64,000 nt of DNA from NCBI RefSeq assembly GCF_001187785.1, contig NZ_CP012154.1:1792501-1856500 (forward strand), read 5' to 3'. A model generated the notes under the pieces. That model saw nothing but the letters and a program-made list of their open reading frames with translations, searched no databases and was not told the origin of the DNA. The position numbers were made by a program, and so were the translations under genes. Shown here piece after piece: positions 30,514-45,280 of this stretch. Numbering within the stretch: position 1 is the first letter of the stretch; the number at the start of each line of letters is the position of its first letter. The stretch comes from Wenzhouxiangella marina. GTDB taxonomy: Bacteria; Pseudomonadota; Gammaproteobacteria; Xanthomonadales; Wenzhouxiangellaceae.

Positions 30514-31623
30514 TCAATCCATGGCTTCGAGTCGAGCGATGGTGTCGCGGGTGACGGCTTCGAGCCGACTGCGCGCCCGGAGCAGGTCGCCGCCGACCAC
30601 GATGGCGCAGTTGCCGCCCAGGGCGGCGGCCGCTTCCGGTGCTCGGTCAAGGGTCTTGCCGCCGCCGCTGCAGGGCAGGGTGGCCGCGTGTCGGCCCAGT
30701 GCGCCGGTGAGGGCCTCGACGATGGCGGATTCCGAGCCGGGCTCGCCGAGGCTGATGCGACCGCCCGAGCCCGGGAAGATGCTCAGGTCGGCGCCGGCCA
30801 GTCGCGGCAGAGTGCCGAAGATCAGGCTCGAGTCGATGCCATTTTCGGGTGCTTCCGTGTAGACACCGGCGCCGGCAGGGTGTGCCAGCCACATCAGCTC
30901 GAATTCACGCGCCGCCGTGGCGGCGCTTTCCAGTCCCATGACCCACGGGCAGAGCACCACGCCGGGCAGGCCCAGTTCCTTGACGACGGCGAGCTGTCGC
31001 CGGAGCCAATCGCCGCTGCCCGCGACATGGGGCAGGTAGAGGCAGGCCTTGCCGCTGTGCTGCTGCGCGTCCTGTACCGCCGCTGCGCAGGCCGAGACAC
31101 GCGCCTGGAAGGCCTCGATCGAGCGTTCGACCAGGTTCTGATCGTCCTTGAGCAGATCGCCACCGCCGCGGGCGAAGCGGCCGGCCAGTTGGGCCAGGAT
31201 CTCCGGTCGGCTACCCCGGGGCTTGAGAACGGTCAACAGCAGGGGGCGGCTGGGCACGCCCAGCTGCGCTCGAATCTCCGGGATGCCGCCGATCGGTCCG
31301 GGCAGCTCCTCGATCACAGACCGCGGCAAATCAACAGCCTGGAGACGGATTCTCGGGTAGAAGGTGACGTTGCCATGCAAGAGCTGCAGCAGCTGGCCCA
31401 TCTGCGCGCTGGCCAGTGCTTCCGGATAGCCGATCCTCAGCAGCCAGCGGTCCTCGTCGACGGGAGCGACGCCGAGCACCCGGCCGAGCAAGGAGGCCCG
31501 GATGTCGTCGGGGATCAGTTCGTCGAGGATCTCCAGGCTCTGTTCGCGAGCGATGTTCTCGGCCAGCTCGGCCGGGTCGCGGTCCGGGCGGGTGGCCAGG
31601 TAGGTCGCTTCGATCAGGGACAT
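30514..31623 (-). CDS. RuBisCO-like protein (form IV)
   Basis: 369-residue TIM-barrel protein of the RuBisCO large-chain superfamily. Landmarks in order: TVLKPRG at 131-137 (Lys134 equals catalytic Lys175 of plant RuBisCO), [10 protein letters not shown] at 153-162 (Lys159-Asp160-Asp161 equals the carbamylated Lys201 and metal Asp203, but Glu204 is Gln162), His248 (AHPAGAG, equals His294), SIFPGSGGR where the usual HxGTVVGK loop-6 segment should be, SGGG at 319-322 and VVGG at 342-345. Missing loop-6 Lys and His327 rule out carboxylase activity. Form IV members act as enolases or isomerases in methionine salvage or sugar-acid pathways. ATG at 31623 is favoured over a start inside trpS. No mtn genes are nearby. 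Confidence 0.85.
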
Positions 31624-31631
31624 GGGGCTAC

Positions 31632-31659
31632 GTTTCCAGCGCGGCAGAGTGGCTACAAT
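31632..31659 (+). promoter_or_regulatory. Candidate promoter of trpS
   Basis: TACAAT at 31654-31659 with a weak GTTTCC 16 bases upstream, in the 95-base gap between the divergent RuBisCO-like gene and trpS. The start codon is 60 bases downstream. Confidence 0.35.
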
Positions 31660-31718
31660 ATCCGTTTCAGGCCCGGCCTGACCATCGACAAGCGCAATTC
31701 TCAAGGCGGAAGCAAGCA

Positions 31719-32729
31719 ATGACGAGCAAGCAGCGAGTGCTGACCGGCATCACCACCACCGGGACCCCTCATCTGGGCAACTATGTCGGAGCGATCAAGC
31801 CGGCCATCGCGGCCAGCCGGGACGAGGATATCGATTCCTTCTACTTCCTGGCCGACTACCATGCCCTGGTCAAGTGCGAGGACCCGGAGCGGGTGCAGCG
31901 TTCGACCCTGGAGATCGCGGCCACCTGGCTGGCCCTGGGCCTGGATACTGAGCGTTCGGTCTTCTATCGTCAGTCCGACGTGCCCGAGATCCCCGAGCTG
32001 ACCTGGCTGCTGACCTGTTCCACGGCCAAGGGCCTGATGAACCGGGCGCATGCCTACAAGGCCGCCGTCGATGCCAACACGGCCAGCGGCGAGGACCCGG
32101 ACTACGGCATCACCATGGGCCTGTTCTGCTATCCGGTCCTGATGGCGGCCGACATTCTCATGTTCAACGCCCAGCGCGTGCCCGTCGGCAAGGATCAGAT
32201 CCAGCACCTGGAGATGGCCCGCGACATCGCCCAGCGTTTCAATCATCGCTATGGCGAACATTTCGTGCTGCCCGAGGCCGAGACCGACGAGCATGTGGCC
32301 ACGCTTCCGGGCACGGACGGGCGCAAGATGTCGAAGAGCTACGACAACACCATCCCCCTCTGGCTGCCCGAGAAGAAACTGCGCAAGGCGATCATGAAGA
32401 TCAAGACCAACTCGCAGGAGCCGGGTGAGCCCAAGGATCCGGACGAGGCCTCGGTCTACGCCGTCTACGCCGCATTCGCCAGTGCCGAGCAGCGCGCGTC
32501 GATGCGCCAGGCCTTCGCCGACGGCATCGCCTGGGGCGAGGTCAAGCAGCAGTTGTTCGAACTGATCAACGCCGAGCTGGAGGGTCCACGTGAGCGCTAC
32601 GAGGCCCTGATCAACAACCCCGAACGGGTCGAGAAGGAGCTGGCGGTGGGCGCGGAGAAGGCACGCGCTCTCAGTGGGCCGTTCATCGCCGAGCTGCGCG
32701 AGGCCGTCGGCATCCGACGCCTGGCATGA
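31719..32729 (+). CDS. trpS: Tryptophan-tRNA ligase
   Basis: 336-residue class I synthetase that charges tRNA-Trp. The HIGH-type motif is [10 protein letters not shown] (12-21, Thr-Pro-His-Leu-Gly form) and KMSKS is at 203-207; [18 protein letters not shown] forms the tryptophan pocket. ATG at 31719 has AAGGCGGA a few bases upstream. The stop overlaps the next start by four bases (ATGA), so the FAH gene is translationally coupled. Confidence 0.97.
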
Positions 32730-35131: not shown

Positions 35132-35857
35132 ATGAGTGCCAATTCTGCGGGCCCAGCACGGCCGCAAGCCATACCGATCGAAGCGCAGCCCGACTCCACG
35201 ACCTGCGGGCCGACCTGCCTGCACGCGCTCTACCGTCATTACGGGGTCGAGCTTCCTCTGGAGCAGATCATCGACGAGATCCAGCGCCTGGATCATGGCG
35301 GCACTCTCGATGTCTTCCTCGCCAACCATGCCCTGGCCCGGGGCTTCCAGGCTCGACTGTACACCTACAATCTGCAGGTCTTCGATCCGACCTGGTTCGC
35401 CGCTGACGAGGTCGATCTGGCCGACAAGCTGGCTGCCCAGTGTCGCCTGAAGCGAAGGGAACGACTGAAGACCGCCACCACCGGCTACCTGGAGTATCTG
35501 GCAGGCGGGGGGACGATACTTTTCGAGGATCTGAGCCGACGCCTGCTCAGAACGCTGCTGGAACGAGGCGAACCGATCCTGACCGGTCTGAGCGCGACGT
35601 ATCTGTATCGCTCCGCGCGCGAATTCGGCCCCGATGATGCCGATGACGACCTGCGCGGTGAGCCGGTCGGACATTTCGTCCTGCTCACCGGCTATGACCG
35701 GCATCGCCGGCAGGTCCTGATCAGCGATCCGACGCATCCCAATCCGCGTGGGACACGTCACTACCGCGTCCACATCGATCGCGTCATCGGCGCGATCCTG
35801 CTGGGTGCGCTGACCTACGATGCCAACCTGTTGATCCTCACACCATGCGCCAACTAG
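35132..35857 (+). CDS. C39-like cysteine peptidase domain protein
   Basis: 241-residue papain-fold protein of the C39-like group. The nucleophile region is DSTTCGPTCLHALYRHYG (21-38, Cys25), the histidine is in VGHFVLLTGYD (His181), and the aspartate in ISDPTHPNP (Asp199). All three residues of the triad are therefore present in the right order. C39 enzymes cleave after double-glycine-type leaders of exported peptides; free-standing versions such as this also act as ligases or hydrolases of isopeptide bonds. No signal peptide or ABC exporter domain. GAGGAGG lies 14 bases before the ATG, rather far; an in-frame GTG at 35093 is an alternative. The ATP-grasp gene overlaps its end by 13 bases. 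Confidence 0.82.
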   Translation: MSANSAGPARPQAIPIEAQPDSTTCGPTCLHALYRHYGVELPLEQIIDEIQRLDHGGTLDVFLANHALARGFQARLYTYNLQVFDPTWFAADEVDLADKLAAQCRLKRRERLKTATTGYLEYLAGGGTILFEDLSRRLLRTLLERGEPILTGLSATYLYRSAREFGPDDADDDLRGEPVGHFVLLTGYDRHRRQVLISDPTHPNPRGTRHYRVHIDRVIGAILLGALTYDANLLILTPCAN

Positions 35858-37308
35858 TCGTCGTCAGCCGCCTGGAAGACTGGCCGCTGGATCTGCCTGG
35901 AGTGGAAACGCTCACCGCCCGGGATTATCTGACCGATCCGAGCTGGTCGAAGCTCCGCTCGGCACGGGTCTACAACCTGTGCCGCAGCTACCGCTACCAG
36001 GCCAATGGCTACTATGTCTCCCTGCTGGCCTCGGCCCGAGGGCACAAGCCGCTGCCGTCGATCGGTACCGTCCAGGACCTGCGCAGCCCCGACGTCATCC
36101 GCCTGGGCTCGGGCGAACTCAGCCGTCTGATCGAGCACAGTCTCAAGCCGATCCAGTCCGAGCACTTCGTGTTGAGCCTGTACTTCGGCCGCAATCTGGC
36201 ACGCCGCCATGACGCCCTGGCCCGTGCCTTGTTCAATCTGTTTCCGGCACCGCTGCTGCGCGCCGAGTTCCAGCGCCTAGCCGAGGGCTGGGTGCTGCGT
36301 CGCCTGGCGCCGATGGCCTTTGCCGAGGTGCCCGAGGCACACCGTGATTTTCTCATCGAGGCGGCCCAGCGCTATTTCTCGGGGCAGCGACCACGCAGCG
36401 CGGCTCGTCGCGCCGGGCGCTTCGACCTGGCCATGCTGGTCAACCCCCGGGAATCGGACCCGCCGTCGGATGAAGCCGCCCTGAAGCGCTTCGAGCAGGC
36501 GGGTGAAGCCCTGGGCTTCAACGTCGAGCGCATCGGCCCGGACGAGATCGGCCGCCTGGCGGAATTCGATGCCCTGTTCATTCGCGAAACCACGGCCGTG
36601 AATCACCACACCTTCCGCTTTGCCCGGCGCGCCGCCGCCGAAGGTCTGGTGGTCGTGGACGATCCGGAGTCGATCCTCAAATGCACCAACAAGGTCTATC
36701 TGGCCGAGCTGCTGCAGCGCCACGAGATCGCGGCGCCGAAAACGATGCTGGTCCACAAGGACAATGCCGATCGGATCGAGCGGGAGCTGGGCCTGCCCGT
36801 GGTGCTCAAGCAGCCGGACAGCGCATTTTCCCTGGGGGTGGTCAAGGTCCACGAGGCCGAGGAGCTCAAGGTCCGCGTGGCCGAGCTGCTCAAGCACTCC
36901 GATCTGATCGTCGCACAGGAGTACCTGCCCACGCCCTTCGATTGGCGCGTCGGGGTGATGGATGGACGGGCGCTCTACGTCTGCCGATACCACATGGCCC
37001 GCGGCCACTGGCAGATCATCCACCGGGAAGGCGAGGGCAAGCGCGAAGGCGCCGCGGACTCGCTCAGCGTGGGCGAGGCGCCAGAAGCCGTGGTGCAGAC
37101 TGCGGTCCGGGCGGCAGGTCTGATCGGCCAGGGTCTGTATGGCGTCGACCTGAAGGAGGTCGACGGACGGGTTCTGGTGATCGAGATCAACGACAACCCG
37201 TCGATCGACGCCGGTGTGGAGGATGCCGTGCTGAAACGCGCGCTCTACCGCGAGATTCTCGGTGTGATCTACAAGCGCGTCACCCAGAGAAAGCTCGGTT
37301 CGGACTGA
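35845..37308 (+). CDS. RimK-like ATP-grasp ligase with RLAN N-terminal domain
   Basis: 487-residue ligase. Residues 1-160 are the RLAN (RimK-like ATP-grasp N-terminal) domain, with its YNLCRSYRYQANGYYVSL signature at 43-60. The ATP-grasp module (about 195-480) has VVLKQPDSAFSLGVV (Lys322 and the Gly-rich loop), AQEYLPTPFDWRVGVMDG, and the metal-binding Asp435, Glu447 and Asn449 in DLKEVDGRVLVIEINDNP. Such enzymes activate a carboxylate as acyl phosphate and join it to an amine, often adding Glu. Because of the domain architecture and neighbours it is not the ribosomal S6 modifier. Second gene of a four-gene operon; substrate unknown. Confidence 0.9.
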   Translation: MRQLVVVSRLEDWPLDLPGVETLTARDYLTDPSWSKLRSARVYNLCRSYRYQANGYYVSLLASARGHKPLPSIGTVQDLRSPDVIRLGSGELSRLIEHSLKPIQSEHFVLSLYFGRNLARRHDALARALFNLFPAPLLRAEFQRLAEGWVLRRLAPMAFAEVPEAHRDFLIEAAQRYFSGQRPRSAARRAGRFDLAMLVNPRESDPPSDEAALKRFEQAGEALGFNVERIGPDEIGRLAEFDALFIRETTAVNHHTFRFARRAAAEGLVVVDDPESILKCTNKVYLAELLQRHEIAAPKTMLVHKDNADRIERELGLPVVLKQPDSAFSLGVVKVHEAEELKVRVAELLKHSDLIVAQEYLPTPFDWRVGVMDGRALYVCRYHMARGHWQIIHREGEGKREGAADSLSVGEAPEAVVQTAVRAAGLIGQGLYGVDLKEVDGRVLVIEINDNPSIDAGVEDAVLKRALYREILGVIYKRVTQRKLGSD

Positions 37309-37367
37309 TCCGCGCACTTTCGACATCGCCCTGTCCAGACGCTTCTTCTTCGCCTAGAGACTCTCTC

Positions 37368-38615
37368 ATGCCGACACTCAGCACCCCGGATCAAATCGTC
37401 CATCTGCACGCTTTTGCAGGTTACGGCATCGAACTCGAGTACATGATCGTCGATCGAGAGACTCTGAGCGTCCGGCCGCTGGCAGAAACCCTGCTCGTCG
37501 ACGCCGACGGTCAGGTGGTCAACGAGGTCGATCACGGCGCCCTGGCCTGGTCGAACGAGCTGGTCGCTCACGTCGTCGAACTGAAGACCAACGGACCGGC
37601 GCCGACACTGGTCGGCCTGGCGGAGCGCTTCCACGGCGACCTGATCCGGATCAATGAGCGACTGGCGGAAGAAGGCGCGCAGCTGCTGCCCACGGCCATG
37701 CATCCCTTGTTCGATCCAAGCCGGGAAACGCGACTCTGGCCCTACGGTCAGACCGAGATCTACCAGACCTACGATCGGATCTTCGGCTGCAGGGGGCACG
37801 GCTGGTCGAACCTGCAGTCCATGCACATCAATCTGCCCTTCGCCGACGATGAGGAATTCCGACGTCTGCACGCCGCCATTCGCGTGGTGCTCCCCTTGAT
37901 CCCGGCACTGGCGGCTTCTTCGCCCTACGAAGAAGGCAGAGCTTCGGCCTGGCTGGATGGACGCCTTCGCTACTATCGGGACAATCAGCGTCGGGTGCCG
38001 AGCATTTCGGGACCCGTGGTTCCGGAGCCGGTGGGGGGCATTGCCGACTATCACCAGCGCATCCTCAAACCCATGTATCAGGCCATTGCGCCACTGGACC
38101 CGGACGAAGTGCTGCGGGACGACTGGCTCAATTCTCGGGGTGCGATTGCCCGCTTCGAGCGCCAGACGATCGAGATTCGGACCATCGATCTGCAGGAGTG
38201 TCCGCGGGCCGATCTGGCCATCGCCGAAGTCGTGACCGCCCTGGTGCGAGCCTTCTACGAGGAGCGCCTGGCCTCCTTCGAGGCCCAGCAAGCCACGCCG
38301 ACGGGGGTGCTTGCCGCCCTGATGTGGCAGGCAGCTGCGCAGGGCAGTGCAACCGCCCTGGGGGCGGCGAGTCTGCAACGCCTCTACGGAATCGATCACA
38401 GTGGCTCCCTGCAGTCGGTCTGGCTGGAGCTGCTGTCTCGCCTGGACGGTCTGTCCGAGACCGCGGCTCGGACGATCGAGATGCTGCTCGTAAGAGGCCC
38501 CCTGGCGGCGGCCCTTCGCACCCGCCTGGGCGAGGCGCCGGAGCGCGCGGCGATCGTGGAGACCTACCAGGAGCTGGCTCGATGCCTGCGCGACCAACGT
38601 CTGTTCATGCCCTGA
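37368..38615 (+). CDS. GCS2-type carboxylate-amine ligase (YbdK-like)
   Basis: 415-residue glutamate-cysteine ligase family 2 protein. The start GIELEYM (20-26) carries the two metal-binding Glu residues, ELKTNGP is at 71-77, the substrate-loop His153 is in SMHINLPF, and IEIRTIDLQECP is at 268-279. GCS2 proteins form a peptide bond to the gamma or alpha carboxylate of Glu or to another amino acid. Paired with an ATP-grasp ligase, a peptide-building role is more likely than glutathione synthesis. ATG at 37368, 59 bases after the ATP-grasp stop; the next gene overlaps its end by 34 bases. Confidence 0.88.
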   Translation: MPTLSTPDQIVHLHAFAGYGIELEYMIVDRETLSVRPLAETLLVDADGQVVNEVDHGALAWSNELVAHVVELKTNGPAPTLVGLAERFHGDLIRINERLAEEGAQLLPTAMHPLFDPSRETRLWPYGQTEIYQTYDRIFGCRGHGWSNLQSMHINLPFADDEEFRRLHAAIRVVLPLIPALAASSPYEEGRASAWLDGRLRYYRDNQRRVPSISGPVVPEPVGGIADYHQRILKPMYQAIAPLDPDEVLRDDWLNSRGAIARFERQTIEIRTIDLQECPRADLAIAEVVTALVRAFYEERLASFEAQQATPTGVLAALMWQAAAQGSATALGAASLQRLYGIDHSGSLQSVWLELLSRLDGLSETAARTIEMLLVRGPLAAALRTRLGEAPERAAIVETYQELARCLRDQRLFMP

Positions 38616-39277
38616 TCACCGCGGAGCATGCCAGTCGAGCGGTGCCGGACGACTGGCAGGACGTGCTTCCGCTGACCGATCCGATGTTGGACAGCCACCG
38701 CGCCTGGGATCCCGGGACCGCCGCCTTCGCCGAAGGCCTTGCCGAACGTCTCGGTGCGCCCCTGCTGGAGGGGCGAGTCAGTCGGCTGCTGGTGGATCTG
38801 AACCGCTCCGAGGGCCATCCAGCGCTGTTCAGTGACTACACTCGAGGTCTGGATGCGGAGCGCAAGCAGATGCTCCTCCATCGTTATCATCGGCCGCACT
38901 GGCGCGCCTTTCGCGAGGCCATCGAAGCGCGGGCACGCTGCCGCCATCTGGCCTGTCACAGTTTCGCGCCGGTGTTGAACGGGCGCGTTCGAAGCACGGA
39001 CGTCGCGCTGCTCTTCGACCCGCGACGGCCCGCCGAAGCGCGGTGGAGTCGCGACCTGATCCTCCGATTGCGACAGGCCTTCCCCGATTGGCGAGTGCAT
39101 GCCAACCAGCCCTATCGGGGTACCTCGAACGGACTGGGTCAGCAGCACCGATTCATGTTTACGGAGGACCGCCTGCTGACCGTCGAACTGGAGATCAACC
39201 AGGCCCGGATCGCCGGGGAGGCCTGGCCGGAGCAGCAGGCACGCATGGTCGAAATCCTGGCCGACTCGATGCGTTGA
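38582..39277 (+). CDS. N-formylglutamate amidohydrolase family protein
   Basis: 231-residue zinc amidohydrolase-like protein. Conserved features: ITAEHASRAVP (His16), SRLLVDLNRSEGHP, LACHSFAPVLNG, and RGTSNGLGQQHRF with a final VELEINQ. In histidine degradation HutG-type members cleave N-formylglutamate, but no hut gene is near. In this operon it more likely hydrolyses or trims a glutamyl product of the two ligases. Start ATG at 38582 lies inside the GCS2 gene (34-base overlap), showing tight coupling. Confidence 0.87.
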   Translation: MPARPTSVHALITAEHASRAVPDDWQDVLPLTDPMLDSHRAWDPGTAAFAEGLAERLGAPLLEGRVSRLLVDLNRSEGHPALFSDYTRGLDAERKQMLLHRYHRPHWRAFREAIEARARCRHLACHSFAPVLNGRVRSTDVALLFDPRRPAEARWSRDLILRLRQAFPDWRVHANQPYRGTSNGLGQQHRFMFTEDRLLTVELEINQARIAGEAWPEQQARMVEILADSMR

Positions 39278-42826: not shown

Positions 42827-45280
42827 CTATTGCTCGAAGCGATCCTCGAACAGCGGGTCGGCGCTGCGGGTGGCGGTGACTTCGATCACGGCCAGGGGGA
42901 GCAGCGGGTCGTCCGTGCTGAGGCAGAGCAGGGCCTGGGCGTTGTCGCCGGGCATCAGGCTGCCATCGACTTCGATCTGGATAGGCAACGACTGACCCGC
43001 CGGCAGGCTGCCCGAGCTCGGGCTGATGCTGAGCCAGGCCACGCCCTGCGGGTCGACGCAGATCGGTGGCGCCTGCTTGTGCAGGGTGACCGTCACGTTC
43101 GACCAGGTCATGGCGTCGTTGTAGGTGTGCAGGAACTCGAAGGTCCAGTTGCCATCGTCGGCCACGCCTTCGGGGCCGAAGGGGAGCTCGTCGATGTGCG
43201 TACTGCTGTAGCTGCCGTCGCTATTGGATCCTGAGCCATCGAAGTCCCAGGGCGGGTTGCCCGTCTGGAAGCCGCCGACCGCATAGCTGCTGCCACCGGG
43301 TGCGGTGATCGTGAGCTGGAGATCGGAGGCCCAGGTCTGGTTGTTGCTGACTCCTGTGACGTCCCCGGAGAAGCTGAAGCCCACCACCGAGCCGACCGTG
43401 CTCACGCCTGCAGGCAGCACCTCGCTGTAGCTGCCATTACCCTGGATCACGAAATCGCTCAGGCTCAAGGTCTCGTCGAGCGCCGGATCGTAGCCTGACC
43501 CGCGCTGAGCGGGCAGGTCGCTGGCGATCGACCAGGCCAGGGCTCGGGAGGACCCGGAATTACTCAATTCGATCTGACCGAGACCCATACCCTGGCCGGG
43601 CACGGTGACCAGGAGCTGTCCGGGTGCCACGCTGGCCAGCTGCTCCTGGATCCAGACGGCTTCGAGCACGCCGGCCTGACCCGACGCGTCGGTGGCTTGA
43701 ACGAACAGCAGGCGAGGCTGGCTGAGGTCCAGTCCCGGGATCGAAAGATCGCCGCTGAAGCTGACCGACGTCCCGCTGCCGTCCAGATTCAGGCTGTAGG
43801 TGGTTCCGGCGAGTGCCGGCGGCAGGTCCAGGCTGGCGGTCACGCTGCTGATGCTGGTGATCGGGTCGTTTGCCGGGCCTTCGCTGACGCCTCCGCGAGC
43901 GTAGCGCGTGTCATCGGCCAGGCCCTGGATGAGGAGCTGGCCCTGGCTGGCGTCGAAGACCGCTGTCAGATTCACCACGTCCGGCCCCGAGGGCGCGGCG
44001 TAGGGCCGTGCGGCGGCCTTGGCGTTGTAGATCAGAGAGGCCAGGATGTCGGCCCAGATGTCATTCTCGAAGCTCGAGCAGCTTTGCTGGAAACTGGTGC
44101 CGATTTCGTAGGTATAGGCGGCCACGCCGAGCATGCCATGGGCGTAGTCCGGCATCGTGCCGCCCGAGGAGTAGAGAATGTCGCGGCCGACCTGATAGTC
44201 GGTAAAGAAGCCCATCTTGCGGCCCAGCCAGGCGAGTTGCTCATGATTGGCCGCATGGTTGCTGGTGCCGCCGCCCCGACCTTCCCAGGGAAACAGGATC
44301 AGTTCGCTGTAGCTGTGCAGGGACAGGAAGATGCCTTCGGCGGTATCCGGGATCAGCGCATCGAAACCGGGATCGGCCGCGTTGTCGCGATAATCGGTGA
44401 ACACCGTATCGAGATAGTCCTGGACGGCCTGAGTCTCGGGCTCGGAGCCGGCGCCGGGTCCCCGATAGGTCTCCGAGCACGAGTTGGTGTCGGAGAACTG
44501 GCCCCAGTAAACATTGCTGTTGCGGTTCAGATCCACGCCCACGGTGCCGCTGGGGCAGGCATTGGTGTTGGCGTTCTTGCGCCAGAAGGACTCGCCGCCC
44601 TCGACTTCTCGACGGCCATCCGGGTTGTGTTGGGCAATGATATGGATTTCGCGATGGTCGAGCAGCCAGGTGGCCGTGGCATCGTTGCCATAGCCATTGA
44701 CCAGCCACTCGGCAAAGCGGGTGGCGGACTCGGCCGTGGTCAGTTCACGAGCGTGCTGGGCGGCCATGATGACCAGCGGTGCCTGTGGATGCGGGCTGGA
44801 CTGATTGCCGATGACGAGCACGTTGATGTCATCACCGCCGGGCTGGCCATTGGCCTTGCGCCAGGTGTCACCGATGTCCTCCCAGCGCGCCAGGTTCGGA
44901 TGAGCGCTGGCCAGGCCCGAGAGGGCGGCATTCGTTTCGTCGACGGTCCGATAGCAGGGAAAGCCCGGAACGCCACCGACGCCGCTGATTCGCCAGGCCT
45001 CGCGGTCGATGTCACGGAAGCGGATCAGGGCATCGGTCTTTTCCCGATCGATCTCGACACGGTAGCCGAGCGCCTGCACTTCGGCCAGGCCGCGTTGGGT
45101 GACGTAGAGATTGACATAGCCCTCGCGCCAGTTGATCCCCCAGAAGTCACCCAGGTAGCGAAGCCGGTTGTAGTCGGCCCGCGGCACATCGTAGATCTTG
45201 ATGACCGTGGACTCGTTGGCCTGCAGCATCGAGCTCAGGGCCAGAACAAGGACGAGTGAAGCGATTCGAAGCATCGACAT
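42827..45280 (-). CDS. Secreted M14 zinc carboxypeptidase with proprotein-convertase-type P domain
   Basis: 817-residue exported metallocarboxypeptidase. Signal peptide ends near ANES (residue 21). The zinc site is HARE (His176, Glu179) plus the later His in SLHSYSE; substrate-binding NRNSN and catalytic Glu in YEIGTSF are present. After the enzyme come Ig-like segments, then a P-domain-like region (ASDLQLTITAPGG, WSNVTVTLHKQ) and a last beta domain beginning WLSISPSSGSL. It ends DPLFEDRFEQ. The final roughly 270 residues resemble those of the upstream S8 protease. Same strand, 73 bases downstream of that gene, so probably one operon for extracellular protein digestion. Confidence 0.9.
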   Translation of the reverse strand: MSMLRIASLVLVLALSSMLQANESTVIKIYDVPRADYNRLRYLGDFWGINWREGYVNLYVTQRGLAEVQALGYRVEIDREKTDALIRFRDIDREAWRISGVGGVPGFPCYRTVDETNAALSGLASAHPNLARWEDIGDTWRKANGQPGGDDINVLVIGNQSSPHPQAPLVIMAAQHARELTTAESATRFAEWLVNGYGNDATATWLLDHREIHIIAQHNPDGRREVEGGESFWRKNANTNACPSGTVGVDLNRNSNVYWGQFSDTNSCSETYRGPGAGSEPETQAVQDYLDTVFTDYRDNAADPGFDALIPDTAEGIFLSLHSYSELILFPWEGRGGGTSNHAANHEQLAWLGRKMGFFTDYQVGRDILYSSGGTMPDYAHGMLGVAAYTYEIGTSFQQSCSSFENDIWADILASLIYNAKAAARPYAAPSGPDVVNLTAVFDASQGQLLIQGLADDTRYARGGVSEGPANDPITSISSVTASLDLPPALAGTTYSLNLDGSGTSVSFSGDLSIPGLDLSQPRLLFVQATDASGQAGVLEAVWIQEQLASVAPGQLLVTVPGQGMGLGQIELSNSGSSRALAWSIASDLPAQRGSGYDPALDETLSLSDFVIQGNGSYSEVLPAGVSTVGSVVGFSFSGDVTGVSNNQTWASDLQLTITAPGGSSYAVGGFQTGNPPWDFDGSGSNSDGSYSSTHIDELPFGPEGVADDGNWTFEFLHTYNDAMTWSNVTVTLHKQAPPICVDPQGVAWLSISPSSGSLPAGQSLPIQIEVDGSLMPGDNAQALLCLSTDDPLLPLAVIEVTATRSADPLFEDRFEQ

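Follow-up and report, generated by a model that had tools for sequence, protein, structure and literature searches.

The window, a stretch of 64,000 nucleotides of Wenzhouxiangella marina DNA from a genome of 3.68 Mb in a single contig, carries four consecutive genes (Table 1) coding for a C39-like cysteine peptidase, a ligase in which an RLAN domain is fused to an ATP-grasp domain, a GCS2-family ligase and an N-formylglutamate amidohydrolase-like hydrolase (FGase). A sequence-only reading had described them as one operon. The four open reading frames (ORFs), their coordinates, the overlaps of 13 bases between the C39 and RLAN genes and of 34 bases between the GCS2 and FGase genes, and the gap of 59 bases separating RLAN from GCS2 were all confirmed by ORF and Pfam checks.

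Table 1. Genes of the four-gene operon in the window and the Pfam families they match.
Product	Position	Strand	Pfam match
C39-like papain-fold cysteine peptidase (241 aa)	35132..35857	+	Peptidase_C39_2, 43.9 bits (cut-off 24)
RLAN domain (residues 25-172) fused to RimK/ArgX/LysX-class ATP-grasp ligase	35845..37308	+	RLAN (PF14401), 160.8 bits (cut-off 25); RimK, 37.5 bits (cut-off 21)
GCS2-family carboxylate-amine ligase	37368..38615	+	GCS2, 94.1 bits (cut-off 21)
FGase (N-formylglutamate amidohydrolase-like) hydrolase	38582..39277	+	FGase, 82.1 bits (cut-off 28.9)

In NCBIfam, no match above cut-off was obtained for the four proteins among the matches listed (25 of 36 for the RLAN protein). 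The GCS2 protein scored 65.1 bits with the YbdK subfamily (cut-off 176.4) and 24 with TIGR02048 (cut-off 249.05). Over 180 residues it is 28% identical to the plant-type gshA product encoded in the same genome, and it is by sequence a distant paralogue of glutamate-cysteine ligase. The FGase protein reached 15 bits with the HutG model TIGR02017 (cut-off 278.75) and is by this cut-off not HutG; it matches Atu2144, a hypothetical protein, and N-formylglutamate amidohydrolase.

The AlphaFold2 model of the RLAN protein (mean pLDDT 88.4) gave RimK (5zct), LysX (3vpd) and ArgX (3vpc/3vpb) as top Foldseek matches over about 300 columns, D-Ala-D-Ala ligases appearing from rank 6 of the list, and its sequence matches known ATP-grasp members at residues 236-461. 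RimK, LysX and ArgX couple the amine of an acidic amino acid to the carboxylate of a peptide. By structure the window ligase falls in the same ATP-grasp subclass as these three enzymes (TM 0.77-0.84 on most targets), but it has an extra N-terminal RLAN domain and scores below the cut-offs of rimK_fam (65.1 vs 143.4) and PRK10446 (30.8 vs 331). The RLAN domain had no fold match of its own among the best 50 of 1133, all of which are ATP-grasp ligases. An RLAN domain above its curated cut-off, its fusion to an ATP-grasp domain and the conservation of the ATP-grasp catalytic residues place the protein in the RLAN-ATP-grasp family.

The model of the C39-like peptidase (pLDDT 93.9) resembled, with moderate TM scores, C39 peptidase domains, the pseudomurein endoisopeptidase PeiR and the phytochelatin synthase Alr0975, the last also in its glutathione acyl-enzyme form. 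With Alr0975 and the C39 leader peptidases it shares a papain-like fold carrying Cys/His/Asp; identity is nevertheless at most 16% among the best 50 fold matches. Unlike a bacteriocin leader peptidase/exporter, the window protein stands alone, with no fused ABC transporter. No signal peptide was seen in it by visual inspection.

Active-site conservation was assessed in alignments of 51 rows for C39, 64 for RLAN-ATP-grasp, 56 for GCS2 and 33 for FGase, in which catalytic status was assigned to positions by alignment to known members and from knowledge of the families. H181 and D199 of the C39 protein are found in 51/51 rows, and Q19 and C25 in all 43 rows reaching them, 8 of the 51 being gapped there. 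Six positions of the ATP-grasp domain (K283, K322, R368, D435, E447 and N449) are invariant in 64/64 rows, and seven of FGase (R68, N74, R75, H122, H126, E202 and E204) in 33/33. Similarly, E64, E71, H112, R257, R265, E269, D274 and E277 of GCS2 are invariant in 56/56 rows, E22 and E24 being present in 52/52 and 54/54 non-gapped rows respectively. The claim that the catalytic residues are present is thus borne out, nearly all positions being invariant across the four families.

Gene order was examined in the best 80 of 563 confirmed matches in genome_contigs, ranked by RLAN similarity. This sample is not a random draw and includes many metagenome-assembled genomes (MAGs), some on short contigs. 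Search profiles were built from the window proteins plus those same 80 loci, and loci were counted from hidden Markov model matches in six frames; the codon-weighted gene caller used for neighbourhoods overlooks or truncates genes in places, a number of FGase genes among them. The closest named relatives by RLAN in this sample are Wenzhouxiangella MAGs, with identity up to 80%. The conserved order is C39 peptidase, RLAN-ATP-grasp, GCS2, FGase. GCS2 lies immediately downstream of RLAN in 69/80 loci (absent in 9, cut by a contig end in 2) and C39 immediately upstream in 67/80; one of the 13 loci counted by rule as lacking C39, L053, is so counted only because its RLAN is split between frames. 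Both neighbours are present in 65/80. FGase is found within 2.2 kb in 46/80 loci and cut in 9, and about 5 kb downstream in two loci, L020 and L044. The complete set is found in 43/80 loci from 11 named phyla: Bacteroidota, Balneolota, Hydrogenedentota, Omnitrophota, Myxococcota, Nitrospirota, Planctomycetota, Pseudomonadota, Spirochaetota, Thermodesulfobacteriota and Verrucomicrobiota. Incomplete sets occur in Auribacterota, Chlamydiota and Uhriibacteriota. The four-gene arrangement is far from chance.

Presence and absence were then compared in 101 relatives, with thresholds of E up to 1e-30 for operon-type GCS2 and up to 1e-20 for C39 and FGase. RLAN was detected in 38, operon-type GCS2 in 20 and operon-type C39 in 21, and all the GCS2 and all the C39 genomes fall among the 38. 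Of these, 22 belong to the window's family, one is G051 and 15 come from elsewhere in the order; every one of the 15 carries a divergent GNAT gene (L082-L096) and none an operon-type GCS2. Family members with RLAN and no GCS2 (G008, G015 and G028) are contig cuts, the end being reached within RLAN in G015 and G028 and at the start of GCS2 in G008. FGase passed the threshold in 45/101 genomes and was strong (5.5e-65 or better) in 20, namely G039 and 19 of the 20 GCS2 genomes; the GCS2 gene of the remaining one, G010, lies 31 bases from a contig end. The four genes are mostly inherited and lost together, with a few exceptions. Co-occurrence in other genomes, on which the sequence-only reading depended, is found in the complete loci and in this shared presence among relatives. 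It upholds the view that the two amidoligases and the two amide hydrolases form one functional unit; that the ligases build and the hydrolases remove a glutamyl peptide is a reasonable proposal.

The operon is taken as an accessory block at the TraB/gyrA site. Among ten RLAN-less genomes whose TraB region was retrieved, only in G020 did the short flank reach gyrA. This genome has no RLAN, GCS2, C39 or strong FGase, and a GDPD-like ORF (L117:582-1355) lies between gyrA and TraB at the same site. TraB, which had been put forward as a candidate partner, was seen beside the operon only in eight loci (L003, L005, L097-L101 and L110), all of the window's genus or named Wenzhouxiangella. Being a neighbour in one lineage and retained in G020, where the operon is missing, it was rejected.

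A different association was observed beyond this clade. Among 249 genomes drawn evenly from the window's phylum, RLAN was found in 54 and operon-type GCS2 in one, the window's own genome; GCS2 was called at E up to 1e-40, with no more than 7 candidates per genome scored. Twenty RLAN loci were hand-picked from 19 genomes of this draw: 19 had a GNAT gene within 3 kb, 15 of these also had DUF3335, a C39-like peptidase, and L132 alone had neither. Pfam assigned GNAT and DUF3335 in one chain to 7 of 10 RLAN neighbours, GNAT only to 2 and neither to the L132 neighbour; the GNAT and DUF3335 search models were built from these proteins. DUF3335 is described as frequently fused to GNAT domains in one report (PMC10318531). 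Searches with these models found GNAT or DUF3335 within 3 kb of RLAN in none of the 80 first-batch loci (L002-L081). Likewise, no GNAT lies beside RLAN in L107-L111 (0/5 loci), and the neighbours in the window are TraB and gyrA. As no GNAT accompanies its RLAN, the window operon is not a GNAT-linked RLAN system. The proposed RLAN-GCS2 partnership thus holds in the window's clade but not for RLAN generally, which is GNAT-linked in nearly all of the loci picked from the phylum draw.

A tree of 69 RLAN proteins (44 GCS2-type, 25 GNAT-linked, lone RLAN loci left out) separated the two kinds with 100/100 support, in a bootstrap that was not fully settled and with GNAT-linked rows all from the window's phylum. 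When eight lone RLAN loci were added in a quick tree, seven were placed within the GCS2 clade, as would be expected had they lost their partners later, and L132 grouped with the GNAT-linked rows. Fifty RLAN positions are conserved at 97% or more in both kinds, and near-fixed differences (at least 90% in one kind, at least 85% in the other) are limited to two, A174L and S326G. Accordingly, the RLAN ligases of both kinds probably carry out one and the same step. The sister clade has, besides the same RLAN-ATP-grasp, a C39-superfamily peptidase next to RLAN in 15/25 loci, and its DUF3335 peptidase is related to the window C39 protein by hhalign (probability 97.3, E 1.7e-11). It differs by a GNAT in place of GCS2, often divergent instead of co-directional, and no operon-type FGase, C39 or GCS2 was found within 3 kb of RLAN in the 25 loci. 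The RLAN ligase is in this comparison the constant core, with GCS2 and FGase standing where the sister clade uses GNAT. Operon-type FGase tracks GCS2 rather than RLAN generally, a pattern suggesting that its target bond is peculiar to the glutamyl form.

Other genes around the operon were surveyed through 116 proteins from the flanks of GCS2-clade RLAN genes, those of lone loci among them, which gave 217 Pfam families, 25 of them listed. No Pfam family was found in more than 4/116 proteins, the commonest being a Na/Ca exchanger in four loci (L062, L064, L067 and L107), and among the families listed no exporter family exceeded 3/116 (MFS_1, with 3). A rough test for small precursor ORFs in 70 loci yielded no convincing recurrent one: judged from two sequences per cluster, the largest cluster (31 loci) resembles a chance chain and the next (8 loci) consists of FGase gene ends. 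Eight proteins were scanned at loci missing C39 or FGase, one Nitrosomonas C39 being included for comparison. They showed no pattern (alpha/beta hydrolase, EEP family, DUF6962, MFS, GH57/DUF3536, a DksA-type zinc finger and one protein with no family). Rfam at gathering score detected no RNA element in the window and four loci, and PADLOC assigned no anti-phage defence family to the four proteins at E up to 0.01. Two lone RLAN loci of the GCS2 clade have a glutamate-related gene upstream, a gamma-glutamyltranspeptidase 12 bases away in one (L046:6321-7985) and a PGA_cap protein of capsule/poly-glutamate type 108 bases away in the other (L015:6915-7889). These are single cases and suggestive only.

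The reading we favour, tentatively and at somewhat less than even odds, is that the operon encodes a self-contained intracellular pathway resembling that of glutathione, which would make and turn over a small glutamate-containing peptide. Glutathione synthesis likewise pairs a GCS2-type ligase (GshA) with an ATP-grasp ligase (GshB), whereas the operon adds the RLAN domain and two hydrolases and its ligases fail the matched GshA-type and GshB cut-offs. Product, substrates and the sequence of steps are inferred from enzyme kinship. GCS2 would form an amide between an amine and a glutamyl carboxylate, probably the gamma-glutamyl one, and the RLAN-ATP-grasp ligase would extend the product by chemistry of the RimK/ArgX/LysX type. 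Enzymes of the FGase family cleave R-CO-NH-Glu amides, and the FGase here could reverse such an amide bond. The C39 enzyme may trim or recycle the product as hydrolase or transpeptidase, in the way that papain-fold enzymes of the phytochelatin synthase type act on glutathione. Since neither an exporter nor a precursor peptide was found conserved with the operon, the product probably stays inside the cell. A wider scheme is doubtful: the RLAN-ATP-grasp ligase would be the core of a small-peptide pathway in many phyla, having an N-acetyl form with GNAT and often a C39-like peptidase, and a gamma-glutamyl form with GCS2, FGase and C39 which would operate beside glutathione in the same cell.

Several observations weigh against the glutathione-like pathway. 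FGase is absent in 25/80 loci despite room for it, and RLAN stands alone in seven loci with room on both sides. C39 was detected neither by profile nor by tblastn in G019 (L110), a single contig 99% complete in which TraB adjoins RLAN, and G022 (L101) lacks it in the same TraB-RLAN arrangement. As C39 is missing in these two genomes and GCS2 in L006, no partner is strictly required by RLAN. Conversely, G039 has an operon-type FGase (L126:3045-3731) and no RLAN, GCS2 or C39 match. The C39 protein resembles phytochelatin synthase only in its fold (9-13% identity, with TM 0.40-0.48 on the query), and the glutamate-related neighbours described above are isolated. Finally, nine loci have an ABC-transporter ATPase cluster 2-8 kb away, in varying orientation. 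It makes a transporter link conceivable, though as a partner we judged it background.

The rival that survives best, unlikely as we hold it, is protein tagging. The RLAN ligase would, like RimK, add glutamate or a dipeptide made by GCS2 to the terminus or a side chain of a protein, with C39 and FGase serving as erasers. The top structural matches do include RimK with RpsF (5zk6) and ArgX with LysW (3vpb), and RimK and RimB form an opposed ligase-peptidase pair in Pseudomonas according to one report (PMC12239564). Against such tagging, neither a conserved small carrier protein nor another partner was found beside the operon in the limited flank and small-ORF scans, and two ligases of unlike fold with an amidohydrolase of small-molecule type would suit a metabolite better.

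We regard as still less probable a compatible-solute dipeptide pathway in which GCS2 or GNAT would be alternative capping enzymes. Its logic would be that of N-acetylglutaminylglutamine amide (NAGGN), whose synthesis uses a pair of ATP-grasp and GNAT enzymes, and the sister clade couples RLAN-ATP-grasp with GNAT. Moreover, several loci are named for Wenzhouxiangella, Marivirga and Balneolales, which are salt-loving groups. The operon is also found, however, in Nitrosomonas, Thiobacillus and groundwater Planctomycetota, none of which is known for special halophily, and no amidotransferase family occurs among the 25 of 217 flanking families listed. A literature search for NAGGN together with ATP-grasp gave no match.

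A graspetide-like system that matures a ribosomal peptide, with C39 acting as its leader peptidase, is highly improbable. ATP-grasp and C39 families are both found in clusters of this type; here C39 is outside any ABC exporter, and neither a frequent exporter family nor a convincing recurrent small ORF emerged from the scans described above. Last and least probable, a second system for glutathione synthesis or for glutamylation of ribosomal S6, suggested by the homology of GCS2 and ATP-grasp to GshA and RimK, was rejected, every listed cut-off having failed and the genome having elsewhere its own gshA (TIGR01436, 642.8 bits, cut-off 463.15), gshB (TIGR01380, 393.4 bits, cut-off 299.05) and rimK (487.2 bits, cut-off 331), to which these housekeeping roles belong.

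Returning to the glutathione-like pathway, a literature search judged by titles and the starts of abstracts gave no paper on the four-gene operon. Iyer et al. 2009 (doi 10.1039/b917682a) reportedly defined RLAN and predicted RLAN neighbourhoods in amidoligase systems. Since that work may describe this neighbourhood, the operon probably falls within the kind of system predicted there. The four enzymes form a real, widespread pathway built of ordinary folds, and the new point of use is the exchange of GNAT for GCS2 and FGase around an RLAN ligase that hardly changes. A complete cassette in at least 11 named phyla, with near-invariant active sites, points to a metabolite or modification of general use. 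If the ATP-grasp step is common to both kinds, one assay on either would reveal the shared building block, and the choice between GCS2 and GNAT would tell how it is capped.

Two further genes of the window lie on the reverse strand. The first (30514-31719) codes for a RuBisCO-like protein, possibly of form IV type (RuBisCO_large, 59.6 bits, cut-off 30.1), and the second (42827-45280) for a large protein in which a zinc carboxypeptidase M14 domain was recognised (142.7 bits).

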